Source: Jeotgalibacillus aurantiacus
GTDB lineage: Bacteria; Bacillota; Bacilli; Bacillales; Jeotgalibacillaceae
NCBI RefSeq assembly: GCF_020595125.1
Contig: NZ_JACNMS010000003.1
Location: 124,001-188,000, forward strand
Direction: 5' to 3'
Length of the DNA stretch: 64,000 bases
Each line of letters begins with the position of its first letter. Within the stretch, counting starts at the first letter, position 1. Positions 1,063 to 63,766 of this stretch are shown here, in pieces. The notes under the pieces were generated by a model. That model did not search any database, was not told where the DNA came from, and saw only the letters and a list, made by a program, of their open reading frames with translations. Made by a program: the position numbers and the translations under genes.

Positions 1063-1249
1063 ATTCCTTCATTCGTTGAAGTTATTCAGTCTTTTTAAAA
1101 AATGTATTCGCTCGTTTGAGATTTTAATTCCTTCTTTCTGGGATTTAATTCATTCAGTAGCGCTGTGACCTGCCTTTATTCCTTCATTCAAATTCTGGAT
1201 TCTTTCATTACCCCGATCGGATTCCTTCACTCCAGATAACGATTCCTTC
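1063..1249 (-). repeat. Family A nine-box phased array (copy A1)
   Basis: Nine degenerate GAAGGAAT boxes read on the minus strand. Their first bases are at 1249, 1228, 1206, 1185, 1155, 1134, 1113, 1091 and 1070, giving spacings 21, 22, 21, 30, 21, 21, 22, 21. The array lies beyond the katG terminator and upstream of the GAF gene. The rest of the 799-1346 gap holds an AT-rich promoter-like stretch around 880-960 and no convincing gene. Confidence 0.85.
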
Positions 1250-1346
1250 ACTTCATCCGCAACCACTGTTTGACGCGATACAGGACTGTGAATGTTCATT
1301 TTGTCACTTTCCGCGACAAACCAGATCCACACTAACTCCATACAAA

Positions 1347-1376
1347 AACCCCTTCCACAAAGGGAAGGGGTTCGAA
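1347..1376 (-). terminator. Rho-independent terminator of katG
   Basis: Inverted repeat AACCCCTTCC / GGAAGGGGTT around a 6-base loop. On the minus strand it is followed by a short T run (TTTTTG). It sits just past the katG stop codon. Confidence 0.85.
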
Positions 1377-1386
1377 GTCATCGATA

Positions 1387-3582
1387 TTATTTCTCTACGT
1401 CAAAGCGGTCTGCATCCATGATCTTCACCCATGCAGCAACAAAGTCTTTTACGAACTTTTCTTTGTTGTCGTCTTGTGCGTAGACTTCTGCAAGGGCACG
1501 AAGAATGGAGTTAGAACCGAATACAAGATCAAAGCGTGTTGCCGTGCGAACAACTTCGCCTGTCTTGCGATCGCGGCCTTCATACTGGTTAAAGCCGTTT
1601 GGCTTCCACTCAACACCCATGTCAAGCAGGTTGACGAAGAAGTCGTTTGTCAGTGTACCGACGCGGTCTGTGAAGACACCGTGCTTTGTATCGCCATGGT
1701 TGTTTCCAAGAACGCGAAGTCCACCAACAAGTACTGTCAGTTCAGGTGCAGTCAGACCTAGAAGGTGAGCTTTATCTACAAGCATTTCTTCAGGGCTGAG
1801 GCTGTATTCCTTCTTCTGATAGTTGCGGAATCCGTCAGATACCGGCTCAAGAACGTCAAAGCTGTCAACGTCTGTTTGCTCCTGCGTTGCATCGCCGCGG
1901 CCAGGTGTAAATGGAACCGTTACGTCCACACCTGCATCCTTCGCAGCTTTTTCAACAGCAGCTGTTCCGCCAAGTACGATCAGATCAGCGAGGCTGACTT
2001 TCTTTTCAAACTCACCCTGGATTTTTTCGTAAACAGCAAGCACTTTTTGAAGCTGTTCAGGCTCGTTTGCTTCCCAGTCTTTTTGCGGAGCAAGACGGAT
2101 GCGGGCACCATTTGCACCACCGCGCATATCTGTTCCGCGGAATGTGCTTGCAGAAGCCCATGCTGTTTTCACAAGCTCACTTACTGTTAAACCTGAATCA
2201 AGGATTTTCGCCTTTAAGTCAGCGATTTCAGCATCAGAAAGTGTGTAATCTACTTTCGGTACCGGATCCATCCATACTAGTTCTTCCTCAGGTACTTCTG
2301 GTCCGAGGTAGCGGTCTTTTGGTCCCATATCACGGTGAAGAAGCTTGAACCATGCGCGTGCAAAGGCATCAGCAAATTCATCCGGATTCTGGTGGAAACG
2401 GCGTGAAATCTTTTCATATTCAGGATCCATTCTCATCGCCATATCAGCAGTTGTCATCATTGTTGGAACTTTTACAGATGAATCTTCTGCATCAGGTGCC
2501 ATATGTTCTTCCGTTTGGCCAACAGCTTTCCACTGGTATGCGCCTGCAGGACTCTTAGTCAGCTCCCACTCGTAACCGAATAACAGATCATAGTAACCGT
2601 TATCCCATTTCGTCGGGTTCGCTGTCCATGCACCTTCGATACCACTTGAAATCGTATCGCGGCCTTTTCCGCTCTTATACGTGCTCTTCCAGCCAAAGCC
2701 TTGATCTTCGATTTCTGCCGCTTCAGGAAGTGCGCCTACGTGCTCATCAGCATCGCCTGCACCGTGAGATTTACCGAATGTGTGTCCACCTGCAGTCAGT
2801 GCTACAGTTTCTTCATCATTCATTCCCATACGGGCAAATGTCTCGCGGATGTCACGTGCACTTGCCAGTGGATCCGGCTTTCCGTTAGGACCTTCAGGGT
2901 TAACATAGATCAGACCCATCTGAACAGCGGCTAATGGATGCTCAAGATCGCGGTCTCCGGAGTAACGGTTGTCCCCAAGCCACTCTGTTTCTTTACCCCA
3001 ATATACATCTTCTTCCGGATGCCAAACGTCTGCACGTCCTGCTCCGAAACCGAATGTTTTTAATCCCATTGATTCAAGTGCCACGTTACCCGTTAATACA
3101 AGTAAGTCAGCCCATGAAATCTTATTTCCGTATTTTTGTTTAATTGGCCATAGCAGACGGCGTGCTTTATCAAGGTTTGCGTTATCCGGCCAACTGTTCA
3201 GTGGAGCGAAACGCTGCTGTCCAGTGCTGCTTCCTCCGCGTCCGTCACCTGTACGATACGTACCGGCTGCGTGCCATGACATACGAATAAATAATGGACC
3301 ATAATGACCGTAATCAGCTGGCCACCAGTCCTGGCTATCTGTCATTAAATCATGAAGATCTTTCTTTAATGCATCATAATCAAGCTTTTTGAATTCCTCC
3401 GCATAATTAAAATCTTCACCCATTGGATTAGATTTCTTATCATGCTGACGAAGAATGCTCAAGTCTAACTGGTTTGGCCACCAGTCTTTGTTCGTTGTAC
3501 CGACTTTTTGTGTTGTGATTGCACTGTCCTCAGAAGACTGTCCAGTGATTGGGCAAGTGCCGCCATTGTTTTCGTGATCCAT
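1387..3582 (-). CDS. katG: Catalase-peroxidase KatG
   Basis: Bifunctional haem catalase-peroxidase of 731 residues, the usual KatG length, made of two homologous peroxidase halves. The active half shows the distal site [11 protein letters not shown] near residue 100 (Arg, Trp, His), [12 protein letters not shown] carrying the Tyr of the Met-Tyr-Trp cross-link, and the proximal haem histidine in [14 protein letters not shown]. The C-terminal half keeps the fold but not the haem site, as is normal. It removes hydrogen peroxide in the cytoplasm. The start [11 protein letters not shown] follows AGAAGGGAGA. It is transcribed alone and ends in a strong terminator. PerR-like boxes lie upstream, suggesting peroxide induction. 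There is no sign of truncation. Confidence 0.97.
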
Positions 3583-3673
3583 GTTTTATTCTCCCTTCTA
3601 AAGTAAAAATATTAATGGATCCTTGATCTGACTGCGTTTTGCAGCAAGAGAAAGGATTATAATCGTTCTCAGA

Positions 3674-3688
3674 TTATAATTATAATAA
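3674..3688. promoter_or_regulatory. PerR-like box upstream of katG
   Basis: TTATAATTATAATAA differs at one position from the Bacillus PerR consensus TTATAATNATTATAA. It lies about 90 bases upstream of the katG start. A further half-match, TTATAATC, lies between it and the gene. PerR control of catalase genes is established in Bacillus; for this site it is inference. Confidence 0.65.
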
Positions 3689-3721
3689 ACTAGCTTTCGA
3701 ATTGAAAGAAAAATGCATCAC

Positions 3722-3736
3722 TTAAAATGATTATTA
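3722..3736. promoter_or_regulatory. Second PerR/Fur-like box
   Basis: TTAAAATGATTATTA matches 12 of the 14 defined positions of the PerR consensus. It lies in the divergent katG/MATE gap and could serve either gene. The remaining bases to 3925 are AT-rich leader without a recognisable gene. Confidence 0.4.
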
Positions 3737-62420: not shown

Positions 62421-62441
62421 TAGAAGGAGCGTGTATGCGCA

Positions 62442-63185
62442 ATGGAACAGTACTTCCATGAAGCGTTTGAAGGATTGGTAAGATTAGGCCCGGGAAGTGA
62501 AACGTCTACAAAAAAGGCGATATCCCTTGTCCCGCTGCCAAAAGAAGAGCCAATCCGCATTTTAGATATCGGATGTGGAACAGGCATTCATACGATGCTC
62601 CTCGCAGAAGCCTTCCCGAACGCTGATATCACAGCGATTGATATCAGCGAAGAGCATTTAGAAGTACTGAACGAAAAGTTGAAAATCTTTCAGCTTGAGG
62701 ACCGGGTTCATGTGAAAAATCAATCAATGTTTGAGCTCGATTATCCGGAAGGAACGTTCGATCTGATCTGGTCTGAAGGGACGATCTACATCGCTGGATT
62801 TCAGTCAGGGCTGAAGGATTGGCGTTCTCTTTTAAAAGATGGGGGATATTTGTTCTGCAGCGAGATTTCCTGGCTGCATGCCATGCCATCTGAATCAAGC
62901 CGTGCCTTCTGGGAGCAGGGTTACGCCGAAATGAACACCATCCCGAATAAAATTATTCAGGTTGAAGCGAATCAATATGCGTTCGAAGCCTCGTTTGTTT
63001 TACCTCAATCAGACTGGCTTGTTGAATATTATGCGCCACTCGCTGACCGCTTGAAGCAAATGAAGGAAAAATATCCTGAAAACGAAGAAGCGCTGAACGT
63101 TGTGGCGATGCTTGAGCAGGAAATCAACCTGTTCAAACAGCATCCGGATGACTACAGTTACGTTTTTTACGGGATGAAGAAATGA
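62442..63185 (+). CDS. Class I SAM-dependent methyltransferase
   Basis: 247 residues. Motif I LDIGCGTGIHTMLLAEAF near residue 42, ITAIDISEEHLEVL, motif IV-like GTFDLIWSEGTIYIAGF, and LLKDGGYLFCSEISWLHAM. Similar to UbiE/YcgJ-type enzymes; substrate unknown. The start lies 21 bases after the SGNH stop, after GAAGGAGCG, so cotranscription is likely. Followed by a terminator. Confidence 0.9.
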   Translation: MEQYFHEAFEGLVRLGPGSETSTKKAISLVPLPKEEPIRILDIGCGTGIHTMLLAEAFPNADITAIDISEEHLEVLNEKLKIFQLEDRVHVKNQSMFELDYPEGTFDLIWSEGTIYIAGFQSGLKDWRSLLKDGGYLFCSEISWLHAMPSESSRAFWEQGYAEMNTIPNKIIQVEANQYAFEASFVLPQSDWLVEYYAPLADRLKQMKEKYPENEEALNVVAMLEQEINLFKQHPDDYSYVFYGMKK

Positions 63186-63197
63186 TGAAGAAGATGA

Positions 63198-63240
63198 GGA
63201 CGGAGCGGCTGTGGTATTCAGCGTGCTCTGTCCTTTTTGT
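63198..63240 (+). terminator. Terminator after methyltransferase
   Basis: AGGACGGAGCGGCTG pairs with CAGCGTGCTCTGTCCT (one bulge) and is followed by TTTTTG. The left arm can also pair with 63272-63285. Confidence 0.75.
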
Positions 63241-63307
63241 ATGCGATTGGAAAAAGGGGTGGCAAAAGGAACAGCTGCTCCGTCCCCCTGAATTGCTCTG
63301 AATGGGA

Positions 63308-63497
63308 ATGTACTGTTCACGGCGGTTTTTGTATCGAATCAATTATTTATTGTCATGTTTCAGGAAATATATGTATTGTTTCAGCTGTTAATTGTATCGT
63401 TCCGTTCTCAGAGTGGCATTTTTGTTATGTTTGAACTTTGATATGTAACGTTCACGATCAGATTTGTACTGTTTCAAAATAGAATTGTATCGTTTGG
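63308..63497 (-). repeat. Family E nine-box phased array
   Basis: TGTAYTGTTTC-type boxes with the G of TGTA at 63310, 63331, 63352, 63373, 63394, 63424, 63445, 63466 and 63487, giving spacings 21, 21, 21, 21, 30, 21, 21, 21. Read on the minus strand this is 21, 21, 21, 30, 21, 21, 21, 21, the family A plan. Confidence 0.9.
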
Positions 63498-63580
63498 TGT
63501 TAAGCACATTCTCGTGTAGAGGTTGAGCTGTCCCTGAACTCTACCTGTCGAATTCGTGCCAAAATGGTCGTGTGACGAGT

Positions 63581-63766
63581 GATGGAATCGTGTTCAGTTG
63601 TGAAGGGATTCCGTCTGGTTGTGAGGGAATTGACATTACGGTCTGAAGGAAAACAGTAGCGTGTGAGGCCTAGTGAAGGAATTAATTTTTCAAAAGAAGG
63701 AATCAACATCTCAAAAGCCTGAATGATTTTCCAGAAAGAAGGTATTGTTAGCGGTTGTGATGGAAT
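63581..63766 (+). repeat. Family A nine-box phased array (copy A7)
   Basis: Boxes begin at 63581, 63602, 63623, 63645, 63675, 63696, 63717, 63738 and 63759, giving spacings 21, 21, 22, 30, 21, 21, 21, 21. It follows the family E array by about 85 bases and is read in the opposite direction. Bases 63767-63863 hold TTCCGCGTCAA and no gene. Confidence 0.92.

Follow-up and report, generated by a model that had tools for sequence, protein, structure and literature searches.

Among described elements, the nearest to the arrays reported here are the STAR elements of Staphylococcus, which are described as interspersed intergenic direct repeats combining a short motif with locus-specific spacers, lineage-specific in occurrence and of unknown function (PMC3532100). 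Their motif is given as 14 bases long and rich in guanine and cytosine (GC), T(G/A/T)TGTTG(G/T)GGCCC(C/A), with spacers of at least 40 bases and a motif number that varies per locus (PMC3532100). The arrays come from a 64,000-nucleotide stretch of Jeotgalibacillus aurantiacus (the window, G000:C3:124001-188000), whose genome comprises 3,506,672 bases in 19 contigs; open reading frames (ORFs) were called mechanically. Like STAR, the arrays are interspersed and intergenic, but their boxes are 9 bases long and belong to several families, and they do not match the 14-base motif given for STAR; the spacers measure 12-14 bases, or 22 at the middle, and both the number of boxes and their plan are fixed in most copies.

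Plasmid iterons and the repeats of par centromeres are direct repeats about two helical turns apart which bind an initiator or adaptor protein, and they occupy one locus per replicon, beside a rep or par gene. The arrays, in contrast, exist in more than 110 copies and have no widely recurrent neighbour among 174 ORFs; the ten window neighbours scanned with Pfam include none of the rep or par kind, and four of them have no family. The first-pass annotation knew of no described element with this plan, and a literature search among open-licence full texts likewise listed no description of such arrays. The design of the site matches no known family that could be tested. The chief new result is that one plan is common to several families of different boxes, the arrays first recognised (family A) being one of a class.

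The first-pass annotation had claimed seven nine-box arrays of family A in the window, and all seven are borne out by alignment, in which the stretches run nearly gap-free against one another, and by a box-path fit allowing +/-1 base around the claimed plan, which places nine boxes in 7/7 arrays with spans of 177-179. The spacing it had proposed, 21, 21, 21 or 22, 30 and then four steps of 21 with an occasional 22, also holds: the fitted steps are 21, 21/22, 21/22, 30, 21, 21, 21/22 and 21, the first three being 21 with a single 22 at step 2 or 3 in six of the seven arrays, and those after the 30-base step being all 21, with a single 22 in one array. Its description of the stretches as gene-free needs correction, as some arrays are overlapped by mechanically called ORFs, in most cases running on the complementary strand. 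Long coding frames are unfit as an explanation, because the 22-base steps break the frame. Its inventory, right for family A, is extended by five further nine-box arrays with other boxes and by two five-box rows (Table 1). When the spacing alone is assumed and the mutual likeness of nine 9-base windows of any sequence is scored, a scan blind to the box sequence, the seven arrays reach 107-132 and real arrays in general mostly 100-135, whereas the scores of shuffled window sequence do not exceed about 61. The boxes show position-specific tendencies, box 4 often ending in AAAA and box 8 often reading GANTGAAT, while the bases after box 9 are CCC in the own genome and TCC elsewhere. The arrays that the first-pass annotation lists at 1063 and 10210 lie on the minus strand, and those at 18981-19167 and 21041-21227 form direct repeats flanking a solute-binding-protein gene (19245-20825).

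A sequence-only profile derived from the seven window arrays was searched against the own genome (G000) and eleven further genomes of the genus (G001 to G011). It finds 41 places at E <= 1e-10 in the own genome, the seven included by construction, and its matches at E 0.001 number 58 in G004, 26 in G007, 21 in G009, 14 in G011, 5 in G006 and 4 in G008. The first-pass annotation had set its claim against genome-wide copies with random box number or spacing, and the copies prove to be otherwise: in a second fit of 107 arrays from six species, with the steps free between 15 and 40 and the number of boxes free, the canonical plan is kept by 34 of the 41 own copies and by 92 of all 107. The remaining seven own copies have a weak or missing box or are fragments, and the 15 off-plan arrays of the whole set were omitted from the analyses of flank pairing, skew, divergence and RNA folding. 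Over the 41 own copies the free fit returns 200 steps of 21, 39 of 22 and 39 of 30; its other steps are scattered flanking pairs or pairs of 25+17 produced by a misplaced weak box, and chance boxes in the flanks push the fitted box count to 10-12 in some copies.

The plan also proves specific when its two step lengths are varied in the stretches of the own genome. With the middle step ranging over 12-44, 22 arrays are found at 30, six at 29, three each at 31 and 34, two at 26, one at 24 and none elsewhere, and with the regular step ranging over 15-29, ten arrays are found at 21 and none at any other value. A counting rule applicable to 87 arrays assigns a middle step of 30 to 69 of them, 29 to 16 and 19 to 2; it leaves out 20 of the 107 arrays (including an own array whose middle step is 29 and a G007 array with a fit of 15+15) and is unable to report 20-22. 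In G007, G009 and G011 most regular steps measure 20 or 21, with 29 or 30 as the usual middle step; the value of 19 belongs to two of eight G011 arrays, and one G008 array is also best fitted by it. Since the change from 30 to 19 amounts to 11 bases, about one helical turn, the helical-phase reading of the first-pass annotation gains support.

Orthologous loci allow the conservation of geometry to be separated from that of sequence. In 17 orthologous pairs from the own genome and G004, the boxes differ at 58/1377 positions (4.2%), the spacers at 215/1801 (11.9%), nearly three times as fast, and the 100-base flanks at 500/3330 (15.0%); because boxes were called in the own genome, a small bias toward box conservation is possible in these figures, from which the spacing is free. 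Over 20 pairs, insertions and deletions (indels) amount to 2 events among the 3784 sites of the arrays and to 30 among the 4035 sites of the flanks (Fisher p 3.6e-7), which makes them about 14 times rarer per site in the arrays than in the flanks of the same orthologues; the pairs were unfiltered for spacing, but each needed a BLAST match of at least 270 bases. The two array indels total 22 gap columns, and as one of them is a 22 facing a 21 step, the other must be of 21 bases, one whole unit, which again favours helical phasing. Divergence follows a similar order of boxes and spacers at greater distances, with 14.2% in boxes, 35.6% in spacers and 32.8% in flanks for six G007-G009 pairs, and 22.2%, 53.8% and 39.2% for four pairs between G007 or G009 and G011 or G006. 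Selection on array geometry, as the first-pass annotation had proposed, is thus supported directly by the rarity of indels, together with the faster drift of spacers.

The same plan recurs with other boxes. Profiles of families B and C find 28 places (one family A row excluded) and 44 places, respectively, at E <= 1e-10 in the own genome, so that families A, B and C together make over 110 arrays there; at E 0.001 they find 36 (B) and 29 (C) matches in G004 and none in the remaining ten genomes of the genus. Family D (TCAGGTCAC), identified by a three-box pattern at 28 loci of G007, has a 4+4 plan, the ninth box being absent in 9/9 fitted arrays. Its pattern matches 6 times in G006, 11 in G008, 5 in G009 and 14 in G011, by pattern only and with the plan unfitted there; it occurs once in G005 and is not found in G001, G002, G003 or G010, and the matches in G000 (5) and G004 (8) mostly represent a different TTGGTCA form. 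Few examples exist of two more candidate families in G007, CACCTTTTG and CTGCACTCA, and of the candidate five-box families E and F of the own genome.

By eye, units of families A and B share a T-tract, the spacer and the eighth box, and the box differs at most other positions, as would be expected if the binder had changed its specificity. One locus carries a B array in the own genome and an A array in G004 between the same flanking elements, and at another locus of G004 a B array and an A array are neighbours, separated by an element of the same kind; given this second locus, the swap is most simply accounted for by a double array that has lost either its A or its B member. A second dispersed element, consisting of TTTGCCGCGGAAA, about 28 bases and CCGCGTCAAAC, brackets arrays (L237:15960-16350, L221:1140-1210 and several array flanks). 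Three near-identical tandem units of 237 bases span 15036-15754 of the window, with one family C array each, and triplets like them lie on contig C1 of the own genome near 36.7, 65.7, 114.8 and 567.7 kb and on contig C6 near 9.7 kb.

Table 1. Arrays and box rows of the window, with positions counted from its first base
Feature	Position	Strand	Remarks
Family A nine-box array, boxes TGAAGGAAT	1063..1250	-	Steps 21,22,21,30,21,21,22,21; alignment, box-path fit, plan scan
Family A nine-box array	5331..5517	+	Alignment, box-path fit, plan scan
Family F, five TCGCAAGAT-like boxes, 21-base steps	8843..8935	+	Tentative; plan scan
Family A nine-box array	10209..10396	-	Alignment, box-path fit, plan scan
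Family C array	15110..15300	-	Third tandem 237-base unit
Family C array	15347..15537	-	Second tandem 237-base unit
Family C array	15584..15786	-	One of three tandem 237-base units
Family A nine-box array	18981..19167	+	Best plan score among the seven
Family A nine-box array	21041..21227	+	Alignment, box-path fit, plan scan
Family A nine-box array, boxes GATTGAAT-like	32458..32645	+	Alignment, box-path fit, plan scan
Family E, five TCGTGAGTT-like boxes, 21-base steps	44947..45039	+	Tentative; plan scan
Family C array, TGTCGATAG	54775..54971	+	First box weak; plan scan (54780) and C profile
Family B nine-box array, AACGATACA	63301..63499	-	About 80 bases from a family A array; plan scan (63309) and B profile
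Family A nine-box array	63580..63766	+	Alignment, box-path fit, plan scan

Where on the chromosome do the arrays lie? Noc and SlmA are described as having many chromosomal sites with a gap at the terminus, and the RefZ sites of Bacillus as chromosomal sites whose place matters for positioning (PMC6657595). The distribution of the arrays is comparably uneven. Contig C2 of the own genome, with 933,824 of the 3,506,672 bases (27%), has none of the 41 family A copies, none of the 28 of family B and one of the 45 of family C, the last total being the 44 at E 1e-10 plus one at C2:647591; a C fragment at C2:851350 is unconfirmed by the plan scan. Four links map C2 to 1.24-1.94 Mb of G007, opposite dnaA, contig C3 mapping to 0.2-0.72 Mb and C1 to 2.87-3.29 Mb when two conflicting links, one joining C3 280 kb with 3.34 Mb and the other C1 691 kb with 0.30 Mb, are ignored; contig C1 of G007 begins, by eye, at a dnaA-like gene. 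In G007 itself, 40 evenly placed 20-kb stretches contain 17 arrays, none of which falls in the 17 stretches from 1.31 to 2.73 Mb, a gap with a chance of about 8e-5 under uniform placement; in this count a match at 263133 was dropped as coding-like by eye, and one of the 17 arrays, at 185520, scores only 88.5. By the whole-genome lists, 1.25-2.26 Mb of G007 holds 2 of 30 A rows and 0 of 28 D loci, and its 603-kb second contig has none of the listed A rows or D matches.

Noc and SlmA sites are single short sites and are not known to form phased arrays, and the Noc site is a 14-base palindrome, ATTTCCCGGGAAAT. The array boxes differ in being non-palindromic; the likeness to Noc sites is that the arrays are strongly, if not absolutely, depleted opposite dnaA in the own genome and G007. 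RacA sites, also chromosomal sites of Bacillus whose place matters for positioning, are like RefZ sites few and palindromic, and neither is known to have the nine-box plan. A role of the arrays as a replacement for Noc is ruled out, as Noc scores over the family cut-off in 12/12 genus genomes, and the Noc palindrome occurs apart from the boxes in all twelve. With at most one mismatch, 20-23 copies of this palindrome are present in each of the seven species that bear arrays, compared with 7-12 copies in each of the remaining five, and one perfect copy lies inside a spacer of a family D array (G007:C1:88023-88036). By analogy, the Noc/SlmA-like distribution suggests a link to chromosome organisation or division.

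What could the arrays be for? We favour, at a probability of about one half, a reading in which they are composite docking sites that were dispersed and then kept by their geometry, perhaps in the service of chromosome-scale organisation. Each array is built of nine (4+5) or eight (4+4) boxes at intervals of about two helical turns, its two blocks being separated by a longer step of fixed length, and the unit of about 188 bases has been copied to many intergenic places, with strong depletion on the side of the chromosome opposite dnaA; the boxes would then all share a single helix face. Equal sites in a row with a fixed offset between two blocks, selection on their spacing and boxes that change family are features that a DNA-binding protein assembling along the array would explain, and we consider it probable that an array is a docking site, under geometric selection, for such a predicted protein. 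A chromosome-scale task, once this is granted, could as readily be true as not. The sequence-specific protein would fill the boxes side by side on one helix face and build one large nucleoprotein assembly, each box family presumably being read by its own paralogue or specificity variant; with less certainty, these assemblies may serve as marks on the chromosome arms in folding, segregation or the control of division sites. A more elaborate version, which we offer tentatively, would be an address system in which related DNA-binding proteins each recognise a different 9-base box while one array geometry is common to all; the arrays would label the arms and the origin side, be rare at the terminus, and have their families replaced between species.

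Several observations weigh against this docking-site reading. The depletion is not absolute, as three of the 30 A rows and two of the 28 D loci of G007 fall within 1.31-2.73 Mb, and dif was not located. Family A arrays have divergent nearest ORFs in 0 of 41 own copies, but 7 of 63 arrays outside the own genome do lie between divergent ORFs, and co-orientation with replication is weak or absent (own A 21/34, own B 11/22, G007 A 13/21). No binding protein was found, and the biggest cluster among the 174 neighbouring ORFs of the own stretches comprises four of them. Indels are not missing from the arrays of distant pairs, where arrays and flanks show 12 and 324 gap columns in the six G007-G009 pairs, and 20 and 123 in the four pairs between G007 or G009 and G011 or G006. 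Finally, five of the twelve species of the genus have one family A match at E 0.001 (G001, G005) or none (G002, G003, G010), and 28 stretches from three of these five contained no convincing nine-box array, coding-looking matches at 76-90 (L371, L382) and a five-box row (L373) having been set aside by eye; the task of the arrays is therefore not essential in the genus. The row in question, L373:3440 of G002, has five TTATCGAAG boxes at 21 bases.

Another possibility, which we regard as rather unlikely, is that the arrays are selfish non-autonomous repeats, the array of about 188 bases being the body of a copying element whose boxes bind an absent or distant transposase or copying enzyme. The similarity of paralogues mostly ends near the array ends, at about -7 to +206 from the first box, as would befit a mobile body, although it extends to -27, -35 and -75 in exceptional cases, and long flanks are common to four rRNA-like-linked copies of G007. 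Two G007 copies 5 kb apart are 92.5% identical over 188 bases and flank what looks by eye like a keto-acid utilisation operon, while a single array sits at the matching place of G011, where the intervening stretch of about 5 kb is absent; families B, C and D are, moreover, lineage-specific. Against this possibility, the single nearly empty site inspected retains box-like remnants, by eye including the ninth box, and so indicates decay and not clean insertion, no widely recurrent gene accompanies the arrays, and boxes and spacing stay conserved at orthologous loci after dispersal, unlike those of a dead element. Inverted ends were not seen, with no systematic search beyond a test of the flanks. 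In that test a stem between the flanks failed as a general feature: own pairs align with an average score of 13.76 and mixed pairs with 13.72, 5 of 91 own pairs score at least 24 compared with 1.8% of mixed pairs, and duplex energies of own and mixed pairs are equal on average (90 pairs). Four A arrays of G007 (L061, L064, L070, L076) adjoin near-identical multi-copy stretches, which may be flanks of ribosomal RNA operons.

A gene-end element, that is a transcription road-block, insulator or topoisomerase site at 3' ends, is quite improbable, even though the surroundings of the arrays are distinctive. In the stretches of the own genome, arrays occupy 22 of the 69 intergenic regions between convergent ORFs, 27 of the 234 between tandem ones and 1 of the 77 between divergent ones; the contrast between region types is meaningful here, and the totals, the stretches being partly picked for arrays, are not. 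GC skew flips across A, B and D arrays, the 100 bases before being G-rich and the 100 after C-rich: +0.36/-0.36 for own A (n=19), +0.18/-0.34 for own B (n=14), +0.22/-0.32 for G007 D (n=9) and +0.38/-0.22 for G007 A (n=6), as compared with +0.23/-0.03 for own C (n=25) and +0.09/-0.02 in array-free convergent regions (n=19). The skew fades by 130-160 bases (92 A arrays), and the flanks show no general pairing that could be its source. The preference for convergent and tandem regions over divergent ones, however, is expected of any element that spares promoters, and a task at gene ends would not lead one to expect so few arrays in the roughly 1 Mb facing the origin. The arrays also have no stable RNA fold, with mean z of -0.33 and -0.68 (24 arrays). 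REP and BIME repeats are palindromic stem-loops, and the arrays differ from them in these fold scores near 0 and in flank pairing no stronger on average than that of mixed pairs.

DNA uptake sequences are single words strongly over-represented genome-wide. That the boxes promote the uptake of kin DNA in this manner is highly improbable, despite their dispersal and the box 'dialects' of different lineages. In the stretches of the own genome and G007, lone boxes of families A (48 against 33.2 expected) and D (34 against 40.3) are near expectation; those of B (14 against 5.4) and C (12 against 4.9) are about 2.5 times as frequent as expected, in small numbers to which arrays below threshold may contribute, and the uptake model has no place for a fixed nine-box plan. 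An RNA element, in which GGA-type motifs of the transcribed array bind an RNA protein, is barely credible, since the AAGGA or ATGGA of the family A box is offset by B, C and D boxes without GGA, the lack of a fold and the absence of any Rfam match at gathering scores in the window.

Outside the genus, comparable rows are scarce. A pattern of three strong boxes, applied without a profile, matches 9 of 299 genomes of the order (G007 lying outside the sample), and a backwards control pattern has no match in these nine and a single match in each of six others. Three of the nine are outside the genus: the G021 match lies in an open frame of at least 150 codons and looks by eye like a coding repeat; G218 has two loci, one inside and one outside such a frame; and G088 has, by eye, four dispersed arrays of six or seven TGATGGAAT boxes at 21-base steps, with differing spacers and no 30-base step, as well as one long tandem array, one other genome from its family giving no match. 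Tandem 21-base arrays of a like box occur in Texcoconibacillus texcoconensis, Metabacillus mangrovi and Sporosarcina sp. HYO08, those of the first (L109, L160) being long and homogeneous, with dozens of units of a TGAAGGAAA box in an open frame; these and one G218 locus, in frames of at least 150 codons, may be coding. A plasmid similarity search with one array gave no match. Candidates from wider scans were rejected: of 44 viral pattern matches, 39 lie inside open frames of at least 150 codons and one of the other five was inspected; among the at least 119 stretches listed in a scan of genome contigs, 51 lie in long open frames, and the 11 remaining listed stretches that were inspected, all outside Bacillales, are mostly simple tandem repeats with conserved spacers and are not counted as relatives. 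The long homogeneous 21-base arrays of Texcoconibacillus and G088, with their like box, recall an ordinary minisatellite kept by slippage, an origin hardly to be believed for Jeotgalibacillus, where the units are heterogeneous, the plan is fixed in most copies and indels are rare. Compared with a DNA-binding protein, an RNA element, slippage and DNA uptake each accord less well with the tests.

If the docking-site reading is true, this group of bacteria uses multi-box docking strips, selected for their spacing, at more than 100 places per chromosome. As families that share this geometry occur together within a single genome and take one another's place from species to species, they would constitute a natural experiment in the co-evolution of sites and DNA-binding proteins, and the array itself would offer a bait for the predicted nucleoid protein.

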